The notes under the pieces: generated by a model | The model's input: the letters and a program-made list of their open reading frames with translations, nothing else | What the model was told of the DNA's origin: nothing | The model's database searches: none | Part shown: positions 4,011-64,000 of the stretch, piece after piece | How positions within the stretch are numbered: the stretch's first letter is position 1 | How the letters are laid out: every line of letters starts with the position of its first letter | Translations under genes and position numbers: made by a program | Origin: Dryococelus australis | Taxonomy: Eukaryota > Arthropoda > Insecta > Phasmatodea > Phasmatidae | Length of the DNA: 64,000 nt | Assembly: GCA_029891345.1 (NCBI GenBank) | Contig: CM057003.1 | Span: 9,242,209 to 9,306,208 of the forward strand | Direction of reading: 5' to 3'

Positions 4011-5473
4011 ATTAAAAAATAATAATAATAAAAAAAAAAAAAATTGTAACCCGACTGATTTTCAAATCCTAGATTATTTGCACACAAACGCTACGCCCTA
4101 GCAAACTTTTTCTTATAAATTCTATTTAAGTGAAAAATACGTATGACATGTGAAAATGATTTTTTACTTTTCCCTACGAACTATGACAAAGACGGACGAA
4201 CAAAAATATATATACCCATACCTCAACCGAGACTTGTAAACAGTCAATCTATCAACTTCGTGGCCACACCTTTCGCCCGATCCTCACCGTCAGTTTGTAT
4301 CGGAATTAAATGCAGTGGGGTTTATGAAATTTCACAAATATTTTTCGAGGTCGTACATAAATTCCAGCACTGGATTTTGCTTTTTTCAGTTTATGTATAA
4401 AATGATATATTTTTACTGAAATGAATATGTCAATATATTAAACCCGTTGTTTCGCAAGAGTGTCGCGTTCGCGTTACTTATAATTGCTCGGTTTTGTACC
4501 AGCTAGACTCAATAATAGAGATTATGAACTCATGTGAACATTAAAACTGTAATAGCGAGAGCAGTCAAGATTGGTACCGTTAGAAAACGTTCTGGGTGCA
4601 GAAATCCTGTCGTAAATCTGTGACCTACTTTCCGCTTCTCTAACACGCTGATGAACTTGTTAATTCTTCGTAGTTAAGTAGAGCATCAGCTCTGATCCTA
4701 TGAAGTCCGCTAAATCGGCTTGTGTGAGTGTCCTGTTTTCAGAACTTCGAGAGTGGATGGAATTCTAACGATTAATGCCCACTCCATGAAGACCACGTGC
4801 AAACTCTCCATTCGTAATACAGGGAAAAGTCCTTCCAAGTCACAACACTTAGCGCCACTTGAGTGATCCGGGCATCCATAATCCTGCCACAGCTATTCCC
4901 ACCAACTAACGACATCCGATCTGTCAAGCCACATCCACACGACTAAATCGACTTCCTGGTACCACGTTTTTCACGGTAATTCTTGGCTTTCAATTTTCTT
5001 GCACATTTAAAACACGTACATTAGTTCCATGACACACAACACAAACTATACTTATATAATTAAAAGTTTAAATTTAATTACAGACTCGTTGATGTGCGAG
5101 AAAATACAAATCAAGTATAAAAATACACCACATATCTGTCAAATTTTTTCCTTGAACTTTTTTGACGTTTAATACATGTTATCATGTTATTATTCGGGCT
5201 GGACAATGCAATTTCCAAAAATAGGGAGGGGGAGGGATTATTCGTGTCTGGCCGCAATTTGTTACACACTCACAGAAAATAAAGGGCAGCTGTCAGACAG
5301 CCTGCAAATTTAGTTCACGCTAGGTATCCAGTTAATTGTTTACGGCGTTGAATTCAGGGAACAGCAGTTACATAATTATCCTCCATTATTTATAGAATTT
5401 TTGATAAGATGTTTTTGAAGAATAATTCAGAAAAATGGACTTTTAAAAACATCAAGGTAAGATACGAGTGTAA
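4011..5473. other. No recognisable feature
   Basis: AT-rich sequence with a poly-A run near 4030. An 85-codon frame at 4143-4400 has no recognisable motif. Around 4440-5000 the base composition is more balanced, but no exon was recognised. Confidence 0.45.
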
Positions 5474-6280
5474 GTCTATTCGCGGCTTCTTCGCGTTTTT
5501 TTATTCACACCTTTGAAAATATCCCCATGTATGACGTGTCTGGTGGTTTCCTAAAGACGTCTTGTACCTCAAGCGTTTAATTCTTCTGATAACATAAAAG
5601 TGCCTTATTTTTTGTTATAGTGATATCGATTATATTTCATTTATAAAATTATAATGTTTCATTATATAATCTGTTCACGGTAAGATGAGCACTTTCGGAA
5701 GCCCTGCTTAAGATCTACTTGTATGCACGTCATGTATACTTCCGCCTTATGTAAAATTAACATTGCCAAGGGTCTCATCCCTTTATTAATGCGTCGGCCA
5801 AAAGAAACTGTGAAATTATTACAAAAGTGAATATTTTAAAATCTGGCAATTTTTACACTTCAGTGCATTAAAAAAAAACAACGAAAAAATAATTTAACTT
5901 ATCACGAATGAACACCTAACACTTTTTATTCGACATTAAGATATGGAACTACTTTCCCATCCATCGTTGCCAACTTTATTGGGCACATGTCACTCAGTAC
6001 ACCCACTGAAATACATGCAGACAGGAGCACTGACTTTTTTCTAGGGTTGATTTGAAAAGTGCTCACTTTATCGTGAACAGCCTTTAATCAATACGAATCA
6101 CAACAGTGATAAAACAGGTGTTCTGGCAATGCCTTGTAAGAAATAGTTCTACTGCAAAACGTTATTAAAATGAGTCCGCACGAGTCCGATACATTGTCTC
6201 TTTGGTGTAATTTTCTGTACTGAGTTCAGGAACAGCCTGAAAGCAGGGCTCCAGAAGAATTGGAGATAACCGTGGATGTA
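5474..6280 (-). mobile_element. MITE type C, split by a type A insertion
   Basis: The left part (5474-5666) carries the type C distal end: TCTATTCGCGGCTTCTTCGC, then 'ACACCTTTGAAAATA' and 'CCCATGTATGACG'. The right part (6089-6280) carries the internal motif 'TGGCAATGCCTTGTAAG' and the proximal end 'AGCAGGGCTCCAGAAGAATT'. A complete type A element lies between them. Removing it restores a type C element of about 385 bp like those at 20512 and 35075. Confidence 0.75.
5667..6088 (+). mobile_element. MITE type A, copy 1
   Basis: Left end CTGTTCACGGTAAGATGAGC with CACTTTC, then 'GGAAGCCCTGCTTAAG' and 'ATCTACTTGTATGCA'. The right end is AAAGTGCTCACTTTATCGTG and AACAGCC. The ends are mutual reverse complements over about 28 bp. 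The interior has no coding capacity. It is inserted into a type C element, so it is younger than that element. Confidence 0.9.
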
Positions 6281-8271: not shown

Positions 8272-8739
8272 ACATCGCGTGAGTGGCTAACTTGTTTTGC
8301 AAAGTGGCTGGCATGCTGCAACATTCAAGTACTATGTTGTTCAAGTCAACTTACATCGCGTGAGTGGCTAACTTGTTTTGCAAAGTGGCTGGCATGCTGC
8401 AACATTCAAGTAGTATGTTGTTCAAGTCAACTTACATCGCGTGAGTGGCTAACTTGTTTTGCAAAGTGGCTGGCATGCTGCAACATTCAAGTACTATGTT
8501 GTTCAAGTCAACTTACATCGCGTGAGTGGCTAACTTGTTTTGCAAGGTGGCTGGCATGCTGCAACATTCAAGTACTATGTTGTTCAAGTCAACTTACATC
8601 GCGTGAGTGGCTAACTTGTTTTGCAAAGTGGCTGGCAAGCTGCAACATTCAAGTAGTATGTTGTTCAAGTCAACTTACATCGCGTGAGTGGCTAACTTGT
8701 TTTGCAAAGTGGCTGGCATGCTGCAACATTCAAGTACTA
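8272..8739 (+). repeat. Minisatellite, 81-bp period, about 5.8 units
   Basis: Units begin ACATCGCGTGAGTGGCTAAC at 8272, 8353, 8434, 8515, 8596 and 8677. Units differ at one to three sites, such as TACTATG versus TAGTATG. As 81 is divisible by 3, a 177-codon frame (8239-8772) runs through with a 27-residue repeat of the form SREWLTCFAKWLACCN. There is no evidence of a real gene: no conserved flanks and no splice context. Confidence 0.95.
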
Positions 8740-14284: not shown

Positions 14285-14525
14285 TTTTTAAATATAAGAG
14301 CTATTTCTTACTAGCCATTATATCACATTTCTATTCTCTGTTTGTAAATTTTAATGAAGGCAAAATTATAAGGGACAATGTTATTTATCCAAATAAAAAT
14401 TACTTATATGAGAGGAAATATAAACACTTGCAATAAATTATTTATTTTGAAAAATGCCAAACATATGAAACATGGGACGATTTTTCAAAGTTTAGATTCA
14501 AAAGGTGTTTAGAGAAGGTTTGAGC
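14285..14525 (+). mobile_element. MITE type C, truncated
   Basis: Contains the type C internal phrase 'GCTATTTCTTACTAGCCATT' and the distal end 'GATTTTTCAAAGTTTAGATT' with 'CAAAAGG', as in the copy ending at 28350. The proximal half is missing. Its end lies about 75 bp before the 117-bp minisatellite. Confidence 0.55.
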
Positions 14526-14600
14526 AGGCTACAACTGAAGAGTTTTGAAAGCCCTGCCCGCTACGTTTGTGTATCCGCCCGAAGACAAAGGAAAAAACTT

Positions 14601-15653
14601 AACGTGTCTTGTGTCCGACAACAGGTAATCGTGTATCGGTCAAGGGACATTGAGAAACTGCGCCCAAATATGCGTCGCTACCACGACGAACCTCACAGCA
14701 GCAAGCTGGAAAAACTTAACGTGTCTTGTGTCCGACAACAGGTAATCGTGTATCGGTCAAGGGACATTGAGAAACTGCGCCCAAATATGAGTCTCTACCA
14801 CGACGAACCTCACAGCAGCAAGCTGGAAAAACTTAACGTGTCTTGTGTCCGACAACAGGTAATCATGTATCGGTCAAGGGACATTGAGAAACTGCGCCCA
14901 AATATGAGTCTCTACCACGACGAACCTCACAGCAGCAAACTGGAAAAACTTAACGTGTCTTGTGTCCGACAACAGGTAATCGTGTATCGGTCAAGGGACA
15001 TTGAGAAACTGCGCCCAAATATGAGTCTCTACCACGACGAACCTCACAGCAGCAAGCTGGAAAAACTTAACGTGTCTTGTGTCCGACAACAGGTAATCGT
15101 GTATCGGTCAAGGGACATTGAGAAACTGCGCCCAAATATGAGTCTCTACCACGACGAACCTCACAGCAGCAAGCTGGAAAAACTTAACGTGTCTTGTGTC
15201 CGACAACAGGTAATCGTGTATCGGTCAAGGGACATTGAGAAACTGCGCCCAAATATGCGTCGCTACCACGACGAACCTCACAGCAGCAAGCTGGAAAAAC
15301 TTAAAGGTGTCTTGTGTCCGACAACAGGTAATCATGTATCGGTCAAGGGACATTGAGAAACTGCGCCCAAATATGCGTCGCTACCACGACGAACCTCACA
15401 GCAGCAAGCTGGAAAAACTTAACGTGTCTTGTGTCCGACAACAGGTAATCGTGTATCGGTCAAGGGACATTGAGAAACTGCGCCCAAATATGAGTCTCTA
15501 CCACGACGAACCTCACAGCAGCAAACTGGAAAAACTTAACGTGTCTTGTGTCCGACAACAGGTACATCATGTATCGGTCAAGGGACATTGAGAAACTGCG
15601 CCCAAATATGAGTCTCTACCACGACGAACCTCACAGCAGCAAGCTGGAAAAAC
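14601..15653 (+). repeat. Minisatellite, 117-bp period, 9 units
   Basis: Unit starts (AACGTGTCTTGTGTCCGACA) fall at 14601, 14718, 14835, 14952, 15069, 15186, 15303, 15421 and 15538. Units are nearly identical. The main variants are ATGAGTCTC versus ATGCGTCGC and ATCGTG versus ATCATG. The frame encodes a 39-residue repeat (…VSCVRQQVIVYRSRDIEKLR…). It stays open for seven units until a one-base insertion near 15305, and is disrupted again near 15562. The two single-base insertions argue against a maintained protein, although long open frames on one strand are notable. Confidence 0.95.
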
Positions 15654-17175: not shown

Positions 17176-18668
17176 CCTTGGTAGCACTCCTCAGGTGTGG
17201 TCTGAAGTTTGTGTTCTTCCCATAGATAAGCACGTTGGAAGCACTCCTCAGGTGTGGTCTGAAGTGTGTGTTCTTCCCACAGATAAGCACGTTGGAAGCA
17301 CTCCTCAGGTGTGGTCTGAAGTGTGTGTTCTTCCCATAGATAAGCACGTTGGAAGCACTCCTCAGGTGTGGTCTGAAGTGTGTGTTCTTCCCATAGATAA
17401 GCACGTTGGAAGCACTCCTCAGGTGTGGTCTGAAGTGTGTGTTCTTCCCACAGATAAGCACGTTGGAAGCACTCCTCAGGTGTGGTCTGAAGTGTGTGTT
17501 ATTCCCACAGATAAGCACGTTGGAAGCACTCCTCAGGTGTGGTCTGGTGTGTGTTCTTCCCATAGATAAGCACGTTGGAAGCACTCCTCAGGTGTGGTCT
17601 GAAGTGTGTGTTCTTCCCATAGATAAGCACGTTGGAAGCACTCCTCAGGTGTGGTCTGAAGTGTGTGTTCTTCCCACAGATAAGCACGTTGGAAGCACTC
17701 CTCAGGTGTGGTCTGAAGTGTGTGTTCTTCCCACAGATAAGCACGTTGGAAGCACTCCTCAGGTGTGGTCTGAAGAGTGTGTTCTTCCCACAGATAAGCA
17801 CGTTGGAAGCACTCCTCAGGTGTGGTCTGAAGTGTGTGTTCTTCCCACAGATAAGCACGTTGGAAGCACTCCTCAGGTGTGGTCTGAAGTGTGTGTTCTT
17901 CCCATAGATAAGCACGTTGGAAGCACTCCTCAGGTGTGGTCTGAAGTGTGTGTTCTTCCCATAGATAAGCACGTTGGAAGCACTCCTCAGGTGAGGTCTG
18001 AAGTGTGTGTTCTTCCCACAGATAAGCACGTTGGAAGCACTCCTCAGGTGTGGTCTGAAGTGTGTGTTCTTCCCATAGATAAGCACGTTGGAAGCACTCC
18101 TCAGGTGTGGTCTGAAGTGTGTGTTCTTCCCATAGATAAGCACGTTGGAAGCACTCCTCAGGTGTGGTCTGAAGTGTGTGTTCTTCCCATAGATAAGCAC
18201 GTTGGAAGCACTCTTCAGGTGTGGTCTGAAGTGTGTGTTCTTCCCACAGATAAGCACGTTGGAAGCACTCCTCAGGTGTGGTCTGAAGTGTGTGTTTTTC
18301 CCCATAGATAAGCACGTTGGAAGCACTCCTCAGGTGAGGTCTGAAGTGTGTGTTCTTCCCATAGATAAGCACGTTGGAAGCACTCCTCAGGTGTGGTCTG
18401 AAGTGTGTGTTCTTCCCACAGATAAGCACGTTGGAAGCACTCCTCAGGTGTGGTCTGAAGTGTGTGTTCTTCCCATAGATAAGCACGTTGGAAGCACTCC
18501 TCAGGTGTGGTCTGAAGTGTGTGTTCTTCCCATAGATAAGCACGTTGGAAGCACTCCTCAGGTGTGGTCTGAAGTGTGTGTTCTTCCCATAGATAAGCAC
18601 GTTGGAAGCACTCCTCAGGTGTGGTCTGAAGTGTGTGTTCTTCCCATAGATAAGCACGTCGGAAGCAC
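17176..18668. repeat. Minisatellite, 57-bp period, about 26 units
   Basis: The unit includes GCACGTTGGAAGCACTCCTC and a GTGTGTTCTTCCCA segment. As 57 is divisible by 3, frames stay open on both strands (minus 391 and 275 codons, plus 301 codons), read as 19-residue repeats. One unit has a small deletion (about 17540) and one a single-base insertion (about 18300). A two-state site, CATAGATAAG (T) or CACAGATAAG (C), gives the order T C T T C C T T C C C C T T C T T T C T T C T T T T. Units follow one another without spacers, so it is not a CRISPR. I see no gene structure around it. Confidence 0.97.
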
Positions 18669-21632: not shown

Positions 21633-22666
21633 GACTAAAGATGAGGTAGACCGCTTATTTGTCTTCTGCACACGTACCCAAAACACTGTCAAAGTCATGT
21701 GGTGAACAATGATGAACGTGTTTGTTTACATTTTAATTCTAGAATGACAAGCACTGTTACATTAATATTGTCATTTTAACCAACTTGAAGTTGATCAAAC
21801 TGCATTAAAAATTAGCTGGAGTAAGTATAAAAATATATCTAACCTAAAATTTAATTCACACCGTTTTTGCAAGTCGTACTGGCAGAAAAGCAGTTCGATG
21901 TAGAAGGCACGTAGAGTGCACTGTTAAAATTTTCCATATATTTAGGGGAATTTTTGCGAAAAATCACAGTAAATATACGGAAACGCAATCCGCAATGACG
22001 AAAAAACGGAGTTAAGGGCGTAAATTCAGAATACGGAAAATATCCGAATTTTCTATAACTTCGGGTTTCGGGCACGAACAATGGCCAGTTTACACGAAGC
22101 TTTCTTCGGCACTGTAACCAGGAAATTATAGTTTCTGCGGCAGTTAAGGTTATCCATGACACTAATACCTGTTCTTTCAAACATCGAAGAGTAGCAATAG
22201 GCGTCTGTAACACTTACCAACACTCAAAATACACTTATGTAAGTAATACAGAAATTCAAAAGTTATACCTAATTCACTAAGTGAGTATTGTAGGTAAGTG
22301 GTTTGGGTCGTCAGTTTGTAACTTTTTGACTCGTCTTCAAATCTTGCTTAGGTGAAAATATTACATTTTTTAAAAATATATTTTTATACACAGTAGAACA
22401 CCCACATAATGAAAATTAAAATAAAATAGATGTTAAAAATGATTTAAACTAGAAGGGTAGAAAACTAACTAGGGAATTAACGGAAAGGTTCCGTGATTTT
22501 TACGGAAAGTCCGTTTTTGAAAATCAATGTGTCCGTAATTTTACGGATAGTTTACGGACACCTCTGGATAAATTTTTACCAACACTTTTCCATAAAATGA
22601 AGGAAATTTTTTTTTAGCAGTGTGGTTGTGCGTATCTAGCGAGGTCGGTCTACCTCATCTTTAGTC
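21633..22666. mobile_element. Candidate 1-kb element with 21-bp perfect inverted ends
   Basis: GACTAAAGATGAGGTAGACC plus G at 21633-21653 recurs as its exact inverse at 22646-22666. The interior is AT-rich. A 120-codon minus-strand frame (22213-21851) has no motif I recognise. No target duplication is visible. The right end lies 16 bp from the neuroligin exon's donor site. It could be a transposon or an inverted repeat of other origin. Confidence 0.5.
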
Positions 22667-22682
22667 TACGGGCGGGACTGAC

Positions 22683-23147
22683 CTGGGGATAGTCGCTGTC
22701 CTTGGTCTGGTAGTCGAAGACGTAGAAGAAGGACCTCGAGGTGGAGGCGGGCGGAGAGCCGCGGTTGCTCAGCACGTCGCCCGTCTGCACGAGCGGCGCC
22801 ACGAACTGGGCGTCGCTGAGCGCCGCGACGCACGCGTCCCTCGTGTTGACGGGGTGGAGGACGGTGCGCTCCCAGTCCGTGTATTCGTTCACGACGGTGA
22901 AGAAAATCTCGGAGAGGTGGTAGGTGTAGGCGTTGCGCACGTACGTGCGCAGGATGCGGTCGCGCCGCTCGCCCTCGAAGCCGAAGCGCACGTCGTCTCC
23001 GGAGAAGCGCCACAGGGCCTCGGCGGTCACGACGCCGAAGAGCAGGTCGTAGCGACCCGCGGCGCCCGCCGCCGCCAGGGCGGCGTCCCCGCTGCGCTTC
23101 ACGTTGCCGCCCGTCGACGCCGAGTGCGGCGGGCCCGCCGCGAACCC
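22683..23147 (-). CDS. nlg: Neuroligin, internal exon (second of two seen)
   Basis: This exon encodes part of the extracellular cholinesterase-like domain of a neuroligin, a postsynaptic adhesion protein that binds presynaptic neurexin and lacks esterase activity. It is 465 bp (155 codons), phase 0 at both ends. The acceptor is TTGCAG before 23147 and the donor GTCAGT follows 22683. Key segments are YDLLFGVVTAEALWRF (about residues 40-55), RILRTYVRNAYTYHL, NEYTDWERTVLHPVNTRD, DACVAALSDAQFVAPL and FFYVFDYQTKDSDYPQ at the end, all typical of insect neuroligins. The first 37 residues or so are Ala/Gly/Ser/Pro-rich and look like a variable loop. GC content is far above the surroundings. The next exon, with the end of the domain, should lie left of the window's visible coding. 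The paralogue is uncertain. Confidence 0.93.
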
Positions 23148-23179
23148 CTGCAAGTTAGGCCACAACCACACATGTGCTA

Positions 23180-23553
23180 AACAACACTCACGATAAACTG
23201 ACCACCTTTGAAATGAACCTTAGAAAAAAGTCACTGCCCCTGCCTGCATATATTTTAATGTGCGCATCGAGGGACATGCGCCCAGTAAAGTTGGTAACGA
23301 TGGATGAAAAGTAGTTCCATATATTAATGTCGAATAAAAAGTGTTAGGTAACCATTTGTGATAACTTAAATTATTTTTTGTTTTTTTTTTTAACGCATCG
23401 AAGTGTAAGTTTGTAAAATATTTAACTTTCCTAATAATTTCCGAGTTTTTCTCAACCGAAGTATGAATAAAGTGATGAGGTCCACGGCAATGTTCATTTT
23501 ATATAAGGCGGAAGAATACACAACGTGCCGTAAGCAGGGCTTTCAAAAGTGAC
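23180..23553 (-). mobile_element. MITE type A, copy 5, in neuroligin intron
   Basis: Left end ACTCACGATAAACTGACCAC with CTTTGAAA. The interior has 'GCCCAGTAAAGTTGGTAACG'. The right end is truncated at GCAGGGCTTTCAAAAGTGA and has lost the last 15 bp or so. It begins about 32 bp upstream of the exon's acceptor in gene orientation. Confidence 0.88.
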
Positions 23554-29263: not shown

Positions 29264-30235
29264 TAGTTATTTTCTTTGATTTTCTTTCCTTCGGTAATCA
29301 TTAAAATAAATATCAGTTTTAGAATTTTTGCTAGTCGATGTAATCTTGTAGTTTCTTTTAATAAATAGTATAATTATGTGTGTATAAATCCATGTCAGGT
29401 GTGTGTGTCGTTTTGTGTATGCATGCATGTGTAAAGAGCAATCGTGTAAGTTCACTATTCAGGTTATTTTTATTTTATGTATGTTGCTTTTATATATTTC
29501 ATATATGCTTCTTTCTTAGTGTATCGTAGACTAGGTTTTGTGCCATTGCTTTCTTTATTTTTCTTTTTAAAAAATAAGTGTTATGTTTTACTATGCAATG
29601 TGGTTAAGTGTAAGAGAAGGTGATAATACCTTAACTTCACCACAAAAGATAAAGACGTTTTATTATTAATAATTTTATTATTATATCTATTGAATTACTA
29701 GGTAGTTTTAATCCTTTTAAGGGGAACAAAATAACTTTTTCTCACGTATTTAAGTGGTAAAGTAGTCAGAAGTGAATATTAGGAAAACTTATTAATCTGT
29801 ATGTTATGTTGTCCTTTTATTGTTACATTATTTTTATAATATTATGTGGCGATGGATTTTAATTTTCTCTGATTCTGGGATATTCTAAGTGTATGGCTAT
29901 TAACTGTTGTAATCTCGATTTTTTTTTGTTTGTAATTTCTCTGTATGTGTTTCATGTCATGTGTTTTGTATTGTATGTGGCTGTTTGGCTTTGTATGTGC
30001 ATTGTACTTAATATAGTGTCATCCTGTAACTGGTTTCAATACTGTTGGGTGGCACTTTAAGCCAATAAATAAATAAATAATGAAAGAAATTATACCGGAG
30101 GACGAAGAAACAACAGCAAAGGACGGAGCATTGAAATTGGCTCGTGGTCCCTATAAGACCCTAACGGAAGTAGAAGAATAAATAAATAAAAAATATTATT
30201 ATATATTATTATTATAGGTTGAAAGTGTTGTTGTC
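29264..30235. other. T-rich stretch with AATA repeats; possible LINE 3' end
   Basis: A T-rich block ends with 'GGTGGCACTTTAAGCCAATA' and AATAAATAAATAAATAA (about 30061-30080), which looks like a retrotransposon 3' end with a tetranucleotide tail. No protein remains. More AATA and ATT repeats follow to the exon boundary. Confidence 0.35.
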
Positions 30236-30240
30236 GGCAC

Positions 30241-30542
30241 CTGCAGGTCGGCGCTCGGGTGCGTGAGCATCTCCCGCTGGAGGTCGGCGCGTATGACGAC
30301 GCCGTCGACGCTGGGGCCGAAGGCGCTGAGGTAGGTGGGGGCGCGCACGTCGGCGCCCAGCAGCTCGTCGAGGGGCACCTCGCGCAGGCAGTCGACGACG
30401 AGCTCGTGGTCGCGCGACAGGTCCTCGGGCACGGAGCAGTTGACCTCGCGTGCCAAGCGCACGGCGTAACTCGCCGGGTCCTCCACCAGCGCCCAGCTGC
30501 TGAGCGACGACCCTGACAGCAGCACGGCGCGGTGGAACAGCC
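30241..30542 (-). CDS. nlg: Neuroligin, internal exon (first of two seen)
   Basis: This 302-bp exon lies upstream of 22683-23147 in the same gene. The acceptor is GTGCGCAG before 30542. Its first two bases complete a split Gly codon, and it ends …CTGCAG at 30241 before donor GTGCCG. It encodes the segment just after the nucleophile elbow of the cholinesterase-like fold: GLFHRAVLLSGSSLSSWALV, then EDPASYAVRLAREVNCSVPE, LVVDCLREVPLDELLGAD, and AFGPSVDGVVIRADL. All are typical of insect neuroligins. Joined to the next exon it gives HPSADLQ followed by GFAAGPP without a frame break. The exon carrying the elbow itself is not in the window, so it should lie beyond 64000 or in unrecognised sequence to the right. 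Confidence 0.93.
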
Positions 30543-30603
30543 CTGCGCACAGCATCACCAACCTTCCCTCACACATCCCCCCACGCACACAAACACACAC
30601 ACC

Positions 30604-30875
30604 TGGGGGCCACGGTGGCTGAGCGGTTAGACTGCTGGGGCTCGCCTCTCCCACCGAGAGCCGAACCGAGTTCAATACCCGGCCGGATTGTTACGCAAGT
30701 GGGAATAGTGCCGGACGATGATGCTGTTGTACGGGTTTTCTCGGGAATCTCCCGTTTCCCCCATCCTTGCAATCAGGCGCTGCTCCGTACTCACTTCACT
30801 TCACTTCACTCACGTCGGCTCTCAAGACCCCGATGCTATGAGCCACCCAAATCTCTTCACTCACTCACTCCACAC
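30604..30875 (+). mobile_element. tRNA-derived SINE, family SB, copy 2
   Basis: Head GGGCCACGGTGGCTGAGCGG then TTAG, a Leu/Ser tRNA-like A box, and a B-box-like GAGTTCAATACCC. The body matches 2205-2460 in reverse. It ends with TCACT repeats. It lies about 60 bp upstream of the neuroligin exon, on the opposite strand. Confidence 0.9.
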
Positions 30876-47282: not shown

Positions 47283-48041
47283 CATTCCAGCAGATTACTG
47301 CTCTAAATGTCCTGCTCATATTCCAGCAGATTGCTGCTCTAAATGCCCTGCTCATATTCCAGCAGATTGCTGCTCTAAATGCCCTGCTCATATTCCAGCA
47401 GATTGCTGCTCTAAATGTCCTGCTCATATTCCAGCAGATTGCTGCTCTAAATTCCCTGCTCATATTCCAGAAGATTGCTGCTCTAAATGCCCTGCTCATA
47501 TTCCAGCAGATTGCTGCTTTAAATGCCCTGCTCATATTCCAGCAGATTACTACTCTAAATGGCCTGCTCATATTCCAGCAGATTGCTGCTCTAAATGCCC
47601 TGCTCATATTCCAGCAGATTGCTGCTCTAAATGCCCTGCTCATATTCCAGCAGATTACTGCTCTAAATGCCCTGCTCATATTCCAGCAGATTGCTGCTCT
47701 AAATGCCCTGCCCATATTCCAGCAGATTACTGCTCTAAATTCCCTGCTCATATTCCAGCAGATTACTGCTCTAAATTCCCTGCTCATATTCCAGAAGATT
47801 GCTGCTCTAAATGCCCTGCTCATATTCCAGCAGATTACTGCTCTAAATGCCCTGCTCATATTCCAACAGATTGCTGCTCTAAATGCCCTGCTCATATTCC
47901 AGAAGATTGCTGCTCTAAATGCCCTGCTCATATTCCAGCAGATTACTGCTCTAAATGCCCTGCTCATATTCCAGCAGATTGCTGCTCTAAATGCCCTGCT
48001 CATATTCCAGCAGATTGCTGCTCTAAATGCCCTGCTCATAT
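47283..48041 (+). repeat. Minisatellite, 36-bp period, about 21 units
   Basis: The unit is ATTCCAGCAGATTGCTGCTC then TAAATGCCCTGCTCAT. Variable positions are ATTGC/ATTAC, CAGCAG/CAGAAG and TGCCCT/TTCCCT/TGTCCT. The plus frame (47192-48163, 323 codons) reads as IFQQIAALNALL repeats after a hydrophobic start (MFNFLLFVIFDGLFFRF). The minus frame is also open (253 codons, repeats of MSRAFRAAICWN). The consistent register of Leu, Ile and Gln would suit an amphipathic helix, but both strands are open and no gene context supports translation. Confidence 0.95.
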
Positions 48042-55902: not shown

Positions 55903-56326
55903 AACTGTTCGCGATAAAGTGAGCACTTTTGACATCAACCTTAGAAAAAAGTCACTGTCCCTATCTGTATATATTTTACCGGGTGTACTGAGTGACATGC
56001 GTCCGGTAAAGTTGGTAATGATGGATGGAAAGTAGTTCCATATATTAACGTCGAATTAATAGTGTTAGGTAACCGTTTGTGATCATTTAAATTATTTATT
56101 TCCCTTTCTGTTTTTTTTTTCTCATGCATCGAAGGGTAAAAATTAGCAGATTTTTTTTAATGTTTACTTTTCTAATAATTTTGCTGTTTCACTTGACCGA
56201 CGCATGAATAAATTGATGAGGCCCTGGCAATGCTAATTTTCATAAGGCGGAACAATACACAACATGCATACAAGTAGATCTTAAGCAGGGCTTTCGAAAG
56301 TGCTCATTTGAACGCGAACAGCCTTT
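55903..56326 (-). mobile_element. MITE type A, copy 10
   Basis: Left end ACTGTTCGCGATAAAGTGAG then CACTTTTGA. The right end is CAGGGCTTTCGAAAGTGCTC then ATTTGAACGCGAACAGCC. The 72-bp minisatellite begins immediately after it. Confidence 0.93.
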
Positions 56327-56618
56327 ACCAGGCTGTTGAACCAAGTCTGATGAATAGAAAAACCGGTCGTTTGGTCGCTGCCATCACAGCTGACACATAC
56401 CAGGCTGTTGAACCAAGTCTGATGAATAGAAAAACCGGTCGTTTGGTCGCTGCCATCACAGCTGACACATACCAGGCTGTTGAACCAAGTCTGATGAATA
56501 GAAAAACCGGTCGTTTGGTCGCTGCCATCACAGCTGACACATACCAGGCTGTTGAACCAAGTCTGATGAATAGAAAAACCGGTCGTTTGGTCGCTGCCAT
56601 CACAGCTGACACATACCA
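56327..56618 (+). repeat. Minisatellite, 72-bp period, 4 identical units
   Basis: Units start ACCAGGCTGTTGAACCAAGT at 56327, 56399, 56471 and 56543 and appear identical, so the array is very recent. The 24-residue repeat is open on both strands (108 codons each). The unit's first bases GGCTGTT match the MITE end, and with the adjacent AACAGCC they form an inverted repeat. Confidence 0.96.
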
Positions 56619-56792
56619 GACCAGAGAAGTTTGACGGGGCAACGAAATCATTTTTTTTCTTATGCGAGTATGTTACTCAAGTTCTTTTGATATTATTCTG
56701 TCGGGCATGCATGGAACACGCTTTTCTCTTTGCTGAGCCGGAGCAAGTTGAGGATGAGCCCATGATACCTTAAGAAATTATGTAGGGTTTTT

Positions 56793-56932: not shown

Positions 56933-58164
56933 TTTGTATTATTAAAGCTTGCTCGTGTTAAATATCGTATGTTGTTTTGGTTTCCTGGATTCTGTTGAAA
57001 TCCCTAAATACGTAGTTACTCCTGATTTTCTGCTGTGCAATAACTGACAAAATATAATGCAGAATTGTACGTTTTAATAAATATTGTATTACTGCAGGGA
57101 GTAATTATTTAATTATTTTTTTCGAAATTTTTCAATTGACCATTAGAAACGTATATCGAAATGAAATATTACCATTACCATCTGCGGGAAATGGTTTCGT
57201 GAAATACACCGGGTAGTCCAACAAACATTGGCTCTTGTTTCTCTGCTTAAAGTGAGGGATGTGGTCTCCTACAGCCCCACAGTGTAACATTTGCACAATC
57301 TAGGGGAACTTTATTCTCTGGCTGATATGTATGTAGGTTTTTGAAATTGTTTCGCGTTTCTGAATATATTTTAAAAAATCTTTACATCAAATGGACTCTT
57401 GTGTGATACTATTTTTAACATTCATGTGCTAGCACATAACTTTTACACACACGATCAAAAACACATACTTTCAGTGAACAGATAAACAAAAGAAATTGCA
57501 CATACACATCTATACTCAGAGCGATATGTTACGCAGCTAATTATAGGCTAGAACTTAACATGGTTCATAATACACGATATGTTACAGGCGAAAAATTCAA
57601 ACAAAGACACCAAAGTCGCATAATTGCCATTATAAAGTGCTTACGTCTTGTTTTAAAACAAGGAACAGCCATATTGTTACTCATTCCGAATCAATGCTCT
57701 CAAAACGATCCGCTGACTGTTCTTTTAACATTTGCAAAACCTCTGCTGTCATCGTTTTGAATTTGTAGTCTTTAGAGGCGCGTGTATACGCGCAGTTGAT
57801 GGATCAGAATGTGAGGTTGCGTTTTTCAGGGTTTATATTTACCGGTAATCACAGATATTATAGTCAGATACGATTACAGAATACTTGGTTATGTTGTCAA
57901 AATATAATTTTCAAATTCAGCTTTATTATAGTAGTTAAACAAAATACAATGTATTATTTTATTATTTTAATAGTTCATTGACATGGAGTGCATGCGTAAG
58001 TATATTTATGTTTGTTTCTAAACAATATTCAGTATTATAATTTTGTTTGTTATTTATCAATTATTCCCTAATTGTCTCGCGTCTCGCTATCGCTGATTGG
58101 CGGAGAGATATGACGTAGTCAGACGAGTTACAAGTGGAAATCTTACCTTGACGCCCAGTAGACG
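56933..58164. other. AT-rich, no gene seen
   Basis: Frames of 61 to 66 codons only. The outer edge of the long-repeat transposon may extend into the right part. Confidence 0.4.
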
Positions 58165-58690
58165 ATAGTGCAACACTTCACGAGTTATATATCGCCACTC
58201 TGAACGTCACTTCTCAACTGCACTCCGAGGCACGATGTGCGCCTTTCGCTACTGTTGTCCGTATGAGTACCAACCGAGTAGCAAAAACCTACCTATTCCA
58301 AAATATCCTACTCGATGCCACGGACAATAAATGGCATGATAACAATGTGTGCGAAGTAGCTTAAGGGGTCGGAAGGTCAAATTGCTCGAATTTAAAACTT
58401 TAATTTATTGCTTATTGGAAACGTTCATAATTCCTTCAAAATTACACCGATTTATATTCTAAAACCAGTTTCGAATTCCTCTCAACGGGGCCTTTCAAGT
58501 GAATTCTAACATTAGCTACTTCTTATAAACGGTTTAAATGTTAGCTACCAGAGGTCATCATAGCAAATATCAGAATGGTGTCTCACAGGCCCCTAAAGTT
58601 AAATCTCATTTTAAAGCTCTTTATGAAGGGAATTAAAAAAATAATATGTTCATTTTCGTTTTGGTTAGTAGTTATTAAATAAACTTACCT
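58165..58690 (+). repeat. Left long inverted repeat of the transposon
   Basis: Best-matching part 58270-58650. Outer matching weakens before about 58205 but shows continued collinearity ('GAACGTCACTTCTCAAC' against the right arm's inverse 'GTAACGTTCTCTCCTAAC'). Confidence 0.82.
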
Positions 58691-59220
58691 TTCAACATGT
58701 TTGCCTTCTGTACTGTAAATGTTATGTATTGAATTTGTCCACAGGAAAAGCTCACGTGGGCACCTCCTGACTTCTTCATTGTATTAGCAACATTGTGTCT
58801 TAAAATATCTTCTCAAAATGTTAACCATAATTTAATATATTTTTGTTTGATTGCAGGACAGAAGTAAATCTCCAACAATAACGGAGGTTGCAGAGGAAGA
58901 TGTAATTCCGTCTGGGGTATCGCAGTAGCTGCGTTATACATGTTTCGGATTAGAAAGACGTTGCGAAGCTAGTCTGTCAGCAAAGTAGGTATTGAATCTT
59001 GGAAGACATTACTGAGAGCAGCAGAAATCCGCAACTATGAACCCATTCTGAATACTGGAGAAAAACGTCGCAGAAGGAGAAATTCCAGAAATATATTACC
59101 ATAGGAAATGTCGAAGCATTTTTGCGATGAAGAAACTGTTGGAACTCCATAAAAGAGAAGAATATAAAACCAGTACAAACCAAAGATGAGCCAAGCAATA
59201 ATGAATACTGTCAATGAGAC

Positions 59221-62200
59221 GGAGGATCCTCCAGTGTAGTTTATGAAGTAAAATGTATTATCTGTGAAAAAATTTCTAAGTACTTGAAAGGCCAGCATAC
59301 CAGGGAACAACTCGTTCAGGGTTGTGAATTATGTGCAGATGAAAGTAATAGGAATACAGCATAAATGAAGATGGATTCAAGGATTATTGGTATTCCAGGC
59401 AGAGACTTAGTAGCCGCAGAGACTCATTATCACAGATGGTGCTACCATGCTTACACAAAATTAGAGAAAACTGATATAAATTATAGCTCTGACAAAAACT
59501 TCATTGAAGATAGTACAAATTATGATGATGTGGAAAAGGTCGCTTTTAAGTAACTTTTAAATTGTATTAGAATTTACTTGTTTACTGATTTACGAGTTAT
59601 GGCAATGATTGAAATAACAAAAATGGAATTGTATGGCATCAGCGATGTCAGAGAGTCGACAAAAAAAAACGCATTCTACGAAAGCTTGAAAACGAGTTCC
59701 CAGGAGTTTTGCGCAGTTTCTCAATGACGGAAGACTGTATTTGTACCCAGAGAATCTCGCTGTCTTTAAGTTGTTTAGAGAAAATAAAAAAAATTAAAGA
59801 AAGAGCTTCAGAGCCTAAATACTACACTGAAAGATAATATTATTATGCAAACAGCCTACAAACTAAGACTTGAAATTCAAAAGCAACCGGTTACACAAGT
59901 TTGGCCTCCAAATATTGAAAAACTGAGTGAAGAAGTCGTCGTGCCAGAATCACTTTCTAAGTTCTTGTATGCTTTGATTACTGGATCAGAAAATAATGTT
60001 CATGCTCGAACAAAACAACGAGTTTCATCCTTACAGCAATGGTAAGTTAAACCTCCAAAACACATACGTCTTTCATTTGCCATAGAATCTCTTAGAGGAA
60101 ATGTTGAGTTAATAACAATTCTCACTCGTCTTGGCTACTGCATTTCTTACTCTAAACTTGAAGAGATTGTTGTTGCAGCCTTATGCATTCAAAAATGGTT
60201 ACAGCAGATAGAGCCGCGATTGTATCTTCTAACATTGTGCTTGGTGTTTTGGCTACTTTAGCTTGGGATAACAGACGGACAGCAGGAGACATTATGTGGG
60301 AAGGTAACATCACCAAAACTGTCTGTCTGCATTTTTGATCAGGCACTGTATGCAAAAGCCTTAGAAATCATATGGAAGCATCCCCATGTGTTTAAAGAAG
60401 TGATCGTTCTTCGTTTAGGTATATTTCATACCATATGCACATGAAAGGAAAGAGGTACAAAGATGCTGGGTTACGAGATTTGAGTTTTGAAGCAGTTGTA
60501 ATTGCTGATGGTTCAGTTGATGCTGTAATGGAATACCGTTATTGCAATAGAGGTATTAGACTACAAAAAATTATATATGAAGCTTTAATGAGAGTGGTAT
60601 GGAAGGGTTTCATACCTTGGTTGGGTGATAATCATAAGGATGATCAGTGTGAGTTGTATGATTTATTGACACATGTGAACAATTTCTCTTCAAATATTTG
60701 CATGACATCAGCAGAAGAACTTGTTCAAAGAGTTTCGTATGGAAGGTTATGGCAACATTTCAAAGACTACATGAAATTTTTGAGAAATGGAAATGGAGCC
60801 CTCTCAAAATTCTGGATTCTTGCCTAGATATGGTTGAATTACTCCTCTGTTTCATTCGAGCACCATGGGAAGGGGATTCGTTGCTTCATTTGGCTTCCAT
60901 TTGTACCATGATCCCTTGGTGTTTTGCCTATGAAAGGATAAATTATGCAAGGTGCCTGCCTGTATACTATGCCCAGATGACACAACTTGCCAATGAACAT
61001 CCTGATATACACAGCTACTTCATGCAGGGAGGATTTTGTGTGCAACTAGGAATCAAAAATCAATTCGGCCATATATCAGTAGATCAAGCCATTGAAGAAA
61101 CTATAAAGAAAGATACATAGACTGCAGAAGGAACAAAAGGGTTCAGCTTAAATCCAGATGCAGTATCAATATAACTATTTTACATATGACGCAAGGTGTT
61201 TGCTTCTGCGGCAACTCCGAGAAATTATTGGGGATAAAATATACAATTTTTCTTATCAAGATATTCATACAGCTCGGATTCAAAAGAAGATGCAAGAGTT
61301 CTAGAATTGATTCGTTTGCTTGATAATTTGGTGAACCCCTTTTCTGATAGCCACAGTGATCTTGTGAGTTTATCTAGTAAAGTTATAGTTTCTGATGACG
61401 TGGTAGAAGATCTGCATAGAGTTTATGCTGTTGGAGAAGAAGAATACCAGAAGTTTAAAAGTTTGCGCCTTGATAAAGAAATGTCGGAAATTCAATTCCA
61501 TGATAAAATGACTAAACTAAATCTAAAGATTCTCTTTCAAATTGTTGAGAGAAAATCTTGGAAGAGAGAACAGGGAAAGAAGTAATTCTGAACGTAACTT
61601 ATTTTCGCTTATAGCCCAAGGTGGGCAATAGAACATGAAAGAAATTCTTGCTCATCCACTTGGACCTGTGCCTTGGGCACTTGCCAATGGTGATGGGACA
61701 GTGCGAAAGGCTAATAAAGCAGTACTCAGGAAAGAACCTGAGAAAGTTGCCTCAAGCAGAAGTAATTCATCAGCCAGCTGTTATAGTCATTGAGGGCTTG
61801 AGTATAGTCCACAAAGTGAAGAGAAAACATTTGGTCAGTTAGCTGACACTTTTTTTCTCAATGGTAATGCAGGACGCTGCAGATAACATAGAAATACATG
61901 TAGTGTTTGATGTGTACAGGGATATATCCATTAAAAATATCGAGGGGTATAGGCGTGTTTCAAATCCGAACACTCTTAAGTTCAAAAACATCTCCTCAAA
62001 TCACAAAATCCAACAGTGTAAAAAGTTTCTCTTAAGTAGCAGCAACAAAACTGAGTTAGTTAGATTTCTTGTTGACCAGTGGAAGCTTACTACCTACAGA
62101 AATGCATTAATAGGTAAGATACATTTTGTGACAGTTGAAGAAAAGTGCTTCAAGATTACACCCCTAGAATGGGACCCTGTACTTGAATTAAGATACACCC

Positions 62201-63055
62201 ACAAAGAAGCAGATACACGAATCTTGTTTCATGCCTTATATGTTTCTCAATCAGGAACCACATCAGTAGCGATATGTTGTGAAGATACAGACATACACAT
62301 ACTGAGCTTAGGTTTTGCACATCTTATTCCCAGTAACTTGTACTTCAAGTGTGGTGCTCACAACCATGTCAGATATATTAATGTTTCAAAACTTTCAACT
62401 ACTTTAGGAAGAAGTGGTTGTGAAGCTTTGATTGGTCTTCATGCTTTCACAAGATGTCTCTCTGTGAGTGCTTTCGCTGGTCGCAGGAAACTGATTGCTT
62501 TAAAGCAAACGAGAAATGATGAAAGCTTCCAAACTGCATTTTCTGAAGTAGGAAAATAATGGGATGTCCCTGAGCAGTTATTTGAGAAGATAGAACTACA
62601 TACATGTCGCATGCACGTGTCATCTTCTCCAACAAACTTAGTCAATGAGCTGCGATACCGAATCTTCTGTGCAAAATAAGGAAATTTAATCCGGTCAACT
62701 CCCACCATGCCAAGATTGTCCTCTCATGCATACACTGCGTGTAAACTACCAAGCCAGCATTTGGAGACGCAGCATGAGAAGTGATCCTGAAATACCAAAC
62801 CCAAAGGAATTTGGATGGGTTTTTGACGGTAACAAAGTTTCAATTCAATGGATGCGAAAACCTGCTGCTCATGGTGTAATGATAGACTTGATGGCATGTG
62901 ATTGCAAGCATTCGTGTAAAATACGAATTGTTCATGTATTATTAATGGACTGAAGTGCACTGAAATGGGCAAACCACCGGCTTGTGATAATCAAAAAGAA
63001 AAATACTAAGAGCTTGGGAGAACTGAGGGTGAAAGTGAGGGCTTTAAAATAAAAC
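59221..63055 (+). pseudogene. Broken transposon gene with zinc-cluster, PIN-like motif and Cys-rich tail
   Basis: Frames chained on the plus strand give one degraded protein of roughly 1,100 to 1,200 residues. (1) 59239-59460 has a CIIC…H…CELC…HYHRWCYHAY cluster, probably zinc-binding, interrupted by an in-frame TAA before MKMDSRI. (2) 59700-60060 has a FLNDGRLYLYPENL-like segment. (3) About 60330-61120 has FDQALYAKALEIIW, VVIADGSVDA, DMVELLLCFIRAPWEGD, then PWCFAYERINYARCLPVYY. (4) About 61640-61860 is an AHPLGPVPWALANGDGT-like segment split across frames. (5) 61861-62559 has HKEADTRILFHAL, EDTDIHILSL and GLHAFTRC. (6) 62726-63020 has a C-D-C-x3-C…GLKC tail. At least six stops or frameshifts break it. 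I know this arrangement from multi-copy uncharacterised proteins in insects and other invertebrates. The acidic pair in (5) resembles the core of PIN/XPG nucleases, an inference only. Confidence 0.78.
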
Positions 63056-63324
63056 AGTTCATGTGTATATGATACACGATTATAATATGTACTGTGATAA
63101 CCAAACGGATTAATTTTCTTATTTTCCAATTGCTACATGAAACAAATCAAACCTACAACGTTGCGAGAAGTCAACCACAGTGTAAAGTGTGGAAACTCAC
63201 TATTGTAAAACAATGGAAGAATCCTTGCGACACACAAGTTCTTTGCTTTGGAACACGACAGGAGAATGAACTGATATGTTTCTGTGTAAACATTCCGTAA
63301 GCAATATGGGAACAAAGAAAGTTT

Positions 63325-63905
63325 GAAATATAACTTTATTTTATAACCTCTGCACAAAATGAAAATTCAAATATTATTTGGAATTCCTTTCATAAAATGC
63401 TTTAAAATGAAATATATAACTTTACGTGTCTGTGACACACCGCTCAGATGTTTTCAATAGTGACTTTTGGTGGCTAACTTTCAAATCATTCGTAGAAAGT
63501 CGTTAAGTACCTAATGTTGCCCACTCATTTGGAAGGCCACGATGACAGGAATTCGGAACTAGTTTCAGAATTTAAATCGGTGTAATTTAGAAGGAATTAT
63601 GGTTATTTCTAATGAGCATCACGTTAAAGTTCACAATTTGATCAATTTGACCTTTTGACCTTTATTTAACCCCTTAAACTACATGGCACACATGGTTATC
63701 ATGACATTTCATGTTCCTGGGAATGTGGGATACTTTGCAGTAGGTAGAGTTTTGCTCCTTTGTTGGTACCAATTAGTCGATATTTGGCGTCTGGCCCACG
63801 GACTATTACGCGCGATGAACAACGGAGCAGCTTGCTATTTGGTTAGGAGAGAACGTTACACCATTGTATTTTCATATTTTTTCTGCTATATTGTGAATTT
63901 CGAAA
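63325..63905 (-). repeat. Right long inverted repeat of the transposon
   Basis: Inverse of 58165-58690. The inner part at 63349-63450 and the middle at 63500-63700 match best. 63906-64000 shows no clear match. Confidence 0.82.
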
Positions 63906-64000
63906 TCTGAATAAAGTTCCCTCAGATTGCGAAAATGTCACAATGTGAGCCGTGTCTACATATTGCATGATGTATGACGTATGCATTGTGTAATGAACAG

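Follow-up and report, generated by a model that had tools for sequence, protein, structure and literature searches.

The window analysed here is the whole stretch of 64,000 nucleotides from contig CM057003.1 of the insect Dryococelus australis. Close to its right end, at positions 58255-63805 on the forward strand, a broken gene lies between two long inverted repeats. We showed that this gene is carried as payload by a mobile element: its copies are dispersed in the genome, its arms come in inverted pairs, its insertions carry a target duplication, and gene and arm go together at 18 of 20 loci. The feature is likely what is left, decayed and without function, of an AcademX-type DNA transposon that was autonomous, moved by cut-and-paste and encoded an accessory nuclease resembling XPG and FEN1. 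AcademX is the best fit because the length of the duplication and the nuclease both agree with what a passage of PMC10045372 gives for this group.

Arms, copies and target duplications

The original prediction, made from the letters of the window, placed the gene between inverted arms of about 500 base pairs (bp) within the interval 58165-63905. The arms are real, since they were recovered by a repeat search of the window, by a gapped alignment and by matches elsewhere in the genome. The left arm (58255-58695, forward strand, with a damaged terminus) measures ~440 bp and the right arm (63323-63805, reverse strand) ~480 bp, their limits being set by comparison with other copies and by the gapped arm alignment, and the two are ~73% alike. 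The repeat search of the window gave two ungapped inverted blocks lying ~5 kilobases (kb) apart, one of 136 nucleotides (58367-58502 with 63525-63660, 80% complementary) and one of 49 nucleotides (58600-58648 with 63368-63416, 78% complementary). In the gapped alignment, done at the window's own place in the genome (locus L029), letters 13-441 of the left arm pair with the right arm at 73.6%. The whole element, 5551 bp in this copy, is thus slightly shorter than the proposed interval (~58255-63805); its boundaries come from other copies, the left one by eye.

We searched the genome (3.4 gigabases, 646 contigs) with window positions 58165-58700 as the arm query. Of the 88 candidates, 40 were scored, so that the count is a lower bound: the left arm has at least 40 scored matches, the window's own included. 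Thirty of these 40, again with the window, are at least 80% identical to the query, the best other one reaching 88%. The remaining 10, with 74-77% identity, probably represent right arms, and six of them are the opposing arms of copies already listed. Most matches begin at letters 99-104 of the query (window 58263-58268), i.e. inside the interval proposed earlier, which first suggested a left edge nearer to the gene. The C-terminal piece of the protein gave at least 152 matches, window included (150 of 749 candidates scored). With so many matches both to the arm and to the protein piece, the arms are not a product of chance. Twenty stretches around arm matches were fetched for the analysis of ends, and self-BLAST found both arms as an inverted pair in 12 of them. 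That other copies of the gene might lack these arms was the objection foreseen by the original prediction. For the close family, and only for it, this objection is answered: among the 20 best gene loci, taken with flanks of 1.5 kb, 18 have the right arm downstream of the gene, and the window's own locus is one of them.

The fetched copies, anchored at their edges, share a terminus common to both ends, TAGTCCGTGGGCCAG. It was scored mechanically in 21 sequences (the window and the 20 stretches) with a threshold of at least 10 of 15 letters. Sixteen sequences have it on the left, 12 on the right and 9 on both sides. When the three bases just beyond the left end are compared with those just beyond the right end in these nine sequences, 22 of 27 positions agree: five pairs are perfect (TTA, AAT, ATA, AAT and TAA), three have one difference and one has two. 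Random re-pairing of the ends gives 38% agreement, and none of 2000 shuffles reaches 22 of 27. Lengths from 1 to 8 were tested on the same nine sequences, and there is no excess agreement at lengths 1, 2 and 4-8. Locus L009 is outside the nine because the script mislocated its left end; read by eye, it gives ATA/ATA. Aligning the flanks of copies, as had been proposed, therefore yielded a common terminus and a 3-bp duplication, and this family makes a 3-bp target duplication. In the window copy, the right end at 63805 matches the terminus at 15 of 15 letters. The left terminus is damaged and keeps 8 of 15 letters; it was mislocated by the scoring and its edge (~58255) was set by eye. Fuller copies (e.g. 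L009 and L010) are ~5.9-6.0 kb long, compared with 5551 bp here, and a junction at 60313-60324 (no strand assigned) marks the place where the window copy is without ~0.4 kb present in them.

For an estimate of age, 13 copies, window included, were compared over a core of 1.45 kb. They differ by 5.9-8.5% from the majority sequence and by 11.0-15.3% (mean 12.9%) from one another. Judged from these comparisons, the star-like divergence is that of a single burst followed by decay, and the family looks extinct in this genome.

Further out, a 39-nucleotide inverted pair (57278-57316 with 63909-63947, 85%) was considered as the true ends of the element and set aside, its flanks being unmatched at the other loci among L001-L048. 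This pair is outside the element. Were the element removed, it would bracket ~1.1 kb, perhaps a small transposon of greater age that was host to this insertion.

A probable nuclease block and the rest of the gene

The coding pieces between the arms all lie on one strand and are probably one gene, which in the window is interrupted by stops and frameshifts. Its C-terminal part has an acidic block (61774-62520, forward strand), delimited by its acidic motifs, their spacing and the program hhalign. EADTR (62206-62220) and EDTD (62281-62292), which had been reported about 25 residues apart, share one forward frame and are separated by 24 residues from D to D. The acidic set is larger than first noted, with IDGMS and VVFD upstream of EADTR and TGCD downstream. 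The corresponding codons, all on the forward strand, start at 61792 (E in the window copy, D in 17 of 27 rows), 61909 (D), 62206 and 62212 (E and D), 62284 and 62290 (D and D) and 62458 (L in the window copy, D in 13 of 27 rows). Conservation was counted over 27 read-through rows, the window row included, contained rows dropped and gaps taken as losses. The seven positions (D, D, E-x-D, D-x-D, D) are kept in 17, 19, 17, 19, 22, 16 and 13 of these rows, respectively.

This is the order of acids found in FEN1, whose active-site carboxylates are D34, D86, E158, E160, D179, D181 and D233 according to a passage of PMC6009646. The distances between acids are 39-99-2-24-2-56 in the family versus 52-72-2-19-2-52 in FEN1 as numbered there. 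A second broken gene, adjoining a family copy in locus L016 (~4753-6229, minus strand), has the motifs VVDGG, VVFDG, GDADG, GGDVD and TGCDT followed by a cysteine-rich tail. Each of the seven places has an acidic residue in this gene too (D, D, D-x-D, D-x-D, D), with spacing 42-71-2-23-2-56. In tblastn, the C-terminal half of the gene matches the family (23% identity and E 3e-7 with L037; E 0.008 with L032). Hence, the same layout is present in two diverged families. No long arms belonging to this second gene were found in L016:3000-7801.

We used archaeal FEN1 genes as the comparison set, 50 of them aligned for hhalign. The family matches this alignment with a score of 31.1 and E 0.0018 over 60 columns, placing TGCD on the GTD of FEN1; the best of 40 column shuffles scores 22.2 and the reversed alignment 15.6. 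A permissive run, with the far relative from L016 included in the alignment, extends over 236 columns; in it IDG, FD, DTD and GCD fall on the matching parts of FEN1, and the EAD region does so with a shift of two. Of the 116 archaeal FEN1 frames, 91 fit a pattern built from motifs and spacing, or 108 if the pattern is loosened. Both transposon families fit it as well, and none of 544 other frames of at least 230 amino acids in the same 120 loci does. The C-terminal block is therefore a probable XPG/FEN1-like nuclease, as far as its residues can tell. Relatives were also sought among viruses: two scans of viral contigs gave no match, another gave 64 pattern matches of which none was confirmed, and none was found in phage records.

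The remainder of the protein comprises several conserved pieces. At the N-terminus, the proposed zinc cluster corresponds to cysteine/histidine (Cys/His) modules that are indeed present, their binding of zinc being inferred. The first (59000-59124, forward strand) is decayed, of YHRKCRSIF type, and was recognised by eye, with a similar row in L014 that is 28.8% identical to the second module. The second (59239-59550, forward strand), of CxxC ... CC ... HYHRSCY type, was delimited from tblastn rows. The central region (60324-61200, forward strand) corresponds to an open frame of 317 amino acids in L048 and to the majority columns of 17 rows. It is conserved among close copies and has many kept acidic residues, and it is likely the place of a putative transposase core. 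The cysteine-rich tail that had been predicted lies at 62747-62950 on the forward strand (CDCKHSC type, from tblastn rows). A relationship to the TSO1-like CXC domain is possible, the match to PF03638 being weak (E 0.38) and seen only in the far relative from L016. Thirteen pieces, eight from the window and five from copies, were scanned against Pfam. None passed the cut-off, the only matches being unrelated and below threshold, and no polymerase, integrase or helicase was matched among them.

Several observations weigh against the reading of this feature as an AcademX-type element with a FEN1-like nuclease. Two of the 20 best gene loci, L035 and L047, have no right arm in reach. The former is the same copy as L013, where ~1.8 kb of extra sequence puts the arm beyond reach; at the latter the arm was not found in the locus with its 1.5 kb flanks. 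No readable target duplication was found at the window copy itself because its left terminus is damaged. The DDE catalytic triad was not located in the central region of this decayed family, as represented by close copies. The profile search that had been suggested was run and gives the predicted PIN/XPG-type nuclease, whose acidic layout holds in order and spacing, weak support: hhalign's own probability for the FEN1 match at E 0.0018 is 14.8%. When the far relative is added, the score falls to 28.9 and the probability to 8.5%, while the best of 60 shuffles scores 26.75. Taken by itself, the far relative scores 21.2, and this in a wrong register. No family match to the N-terminal half of the far relative's gene block was found by tblastn at E 0.01. 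Searches of Pfam (with pieces of the window, of copies and of the far relative) and of PDB sequences gave no XPG match. The AlphaFold2 single-sequence model of the window block has a predicted local distance difference test (pLDDT) of 33 and is unusable for the fold. The motif-and-spacing pattern was written after both families had been seen and is a check of rarity, not a blind test. Finally, the name AcademX was given on duplication length and nuclease, the element being set beside Academ by description only.

Surroundings of the element

Exon-like frames of the carboxylesterase family (PF00135) lie on the minus strand at 22653-23219 and 30202-30690 (E 2.9e-8 and 1.9e-14). By eye we take them to be neuroligin-like. 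By the strand of that gene, the transposon is on its upstream side. The window also holds tandem arrays at 17178-18668 (unit of 57 bp), 14593-15653 (117 bp), 8272-8739 (81 bp), 47284-48041 (36 bp) and 56326-56619 (72 bp), whose units match at 95-100% and from which long open frames arise. The frame at 14496-15353 is matched by Pfam, though probably spuriously: none of its stretches passes singly. Elsewhere in the genome, near a family copy in L027, a minus-strand frame of 348 amino acids from offset 6265 looks by eye like a PIF1-type helicase, perhaps of a Helitron.

Mechanism, alternatives and known systems

In an AcademX-type element, the N-terminal Cys/His modules would recognise the arms, and a DDD/E transposase core in the centre would cut the ends and join them, leaving a stagger of 3 bp. 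The XPG/FEN1-like domain would be an accessory nuclease that cleaves or trims flaps or 5' ends while the element is excised or the gap is repaired.

One might also think of another superfamily with long arms, for example a Kolobok with an accessory nuclease or the remnant of a Maverick/Polinton. Kolobok elements duplicate TTAA, whereas the pairs found here have 3 bp, with no 4-bp signal and no fixed TTAA. No polymerase, integrase or helicase turned up among the 13 scanned pieces either, and Maverick/Polinton was set aside on the 3-bp duplication and the lack of viral-type gene matches in these pieces. In favour of a Kolobok is the presence of an accessory nuclease beside the transposase in KolobokD, KolobokE and KolobokP, but in the relevant part of PMC9587614 these nucleases are of other types (DEDDh, lambda exonuclease-like and His-Me finger). 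We hold this explanation to be unlikely. It is less likely still that the family is a new superfamily, tied to Academ solely by its nuclease domain: the likeness to Academ is indeed one of description, with none of the 13 pieces at the Pfam cut-off, but duplication length and nuclease both fit AcademX as described in a passage of PMC10045372.

The original prediction took the nuclease itself for the recombinase, replacing a DDE enzyme, so that the XPG/FEN1-like domain would both cut and join. FEN1-like enzymes hydrolyse 5' flaps, and we know of no strand transfer by them. For this idea speak the genuine acidic layout of a nuclease and the DDE triad that was looked for in this family and not found. 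Against it, a long conserved centre with many kept acidic residues has still to be accounted for. A passage of PMC9587614 counts Academ with the superfamilies that encode a DDD/E transposase, and one of PMC10045372 gives AcademX a nuclease. The claim is unsupported and very improbable.

These results tie an invertebrate protein group to a transposon whose ends are defined, whose target duplication measures 3 bp and whose protein probably includes a FEN1-like nuclease domain. The group is presumably the multi-copy one, usually left uncharacterised, that the original prediction described. The probable nuclease domain goes unrecognised by Pfam as scanned here. Its description helps annotation and raises the question of the role of a flap-type nuclease in cut-and-paste transposition. 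If the element is truly AcademX, it follows a principle known before, and the gain is one extinct family, which we do not claim to be unpublished.

With the FEN1 and XPG 5' nucleases, the block shares the order and approximate spacing of seven acids and a GCD region that falls on the GTD of FEN1. It differs from them in that overall similarity is at the limit of detection and in that the host enzymes are repair proteins, not borne by transposons. The X of AcademX stands for XPG. Within Academ, a passage of PMC10045372 (citing Kojima 2020, Mob DNA 11:15) gives duplications of 3 or 4 bp for AcademX and of 9 or 10 bp for AcademH, and relates the difference to the nuclease and helicase they encode. 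AcademH, of the same superfamily, thus differs from our family by its longer duplication and its helicase, whereas we found a clear 3-bp signal among lengths 1-8 and no helicase match in the 13 scanned pieces. AcademX, by the same passage, resembles it in both respects: a duplication of 3 bp here against 3 or 4 bp, and an encoded nuclease, recognised here by the order and spacing of its motifs and by a weak profile match.

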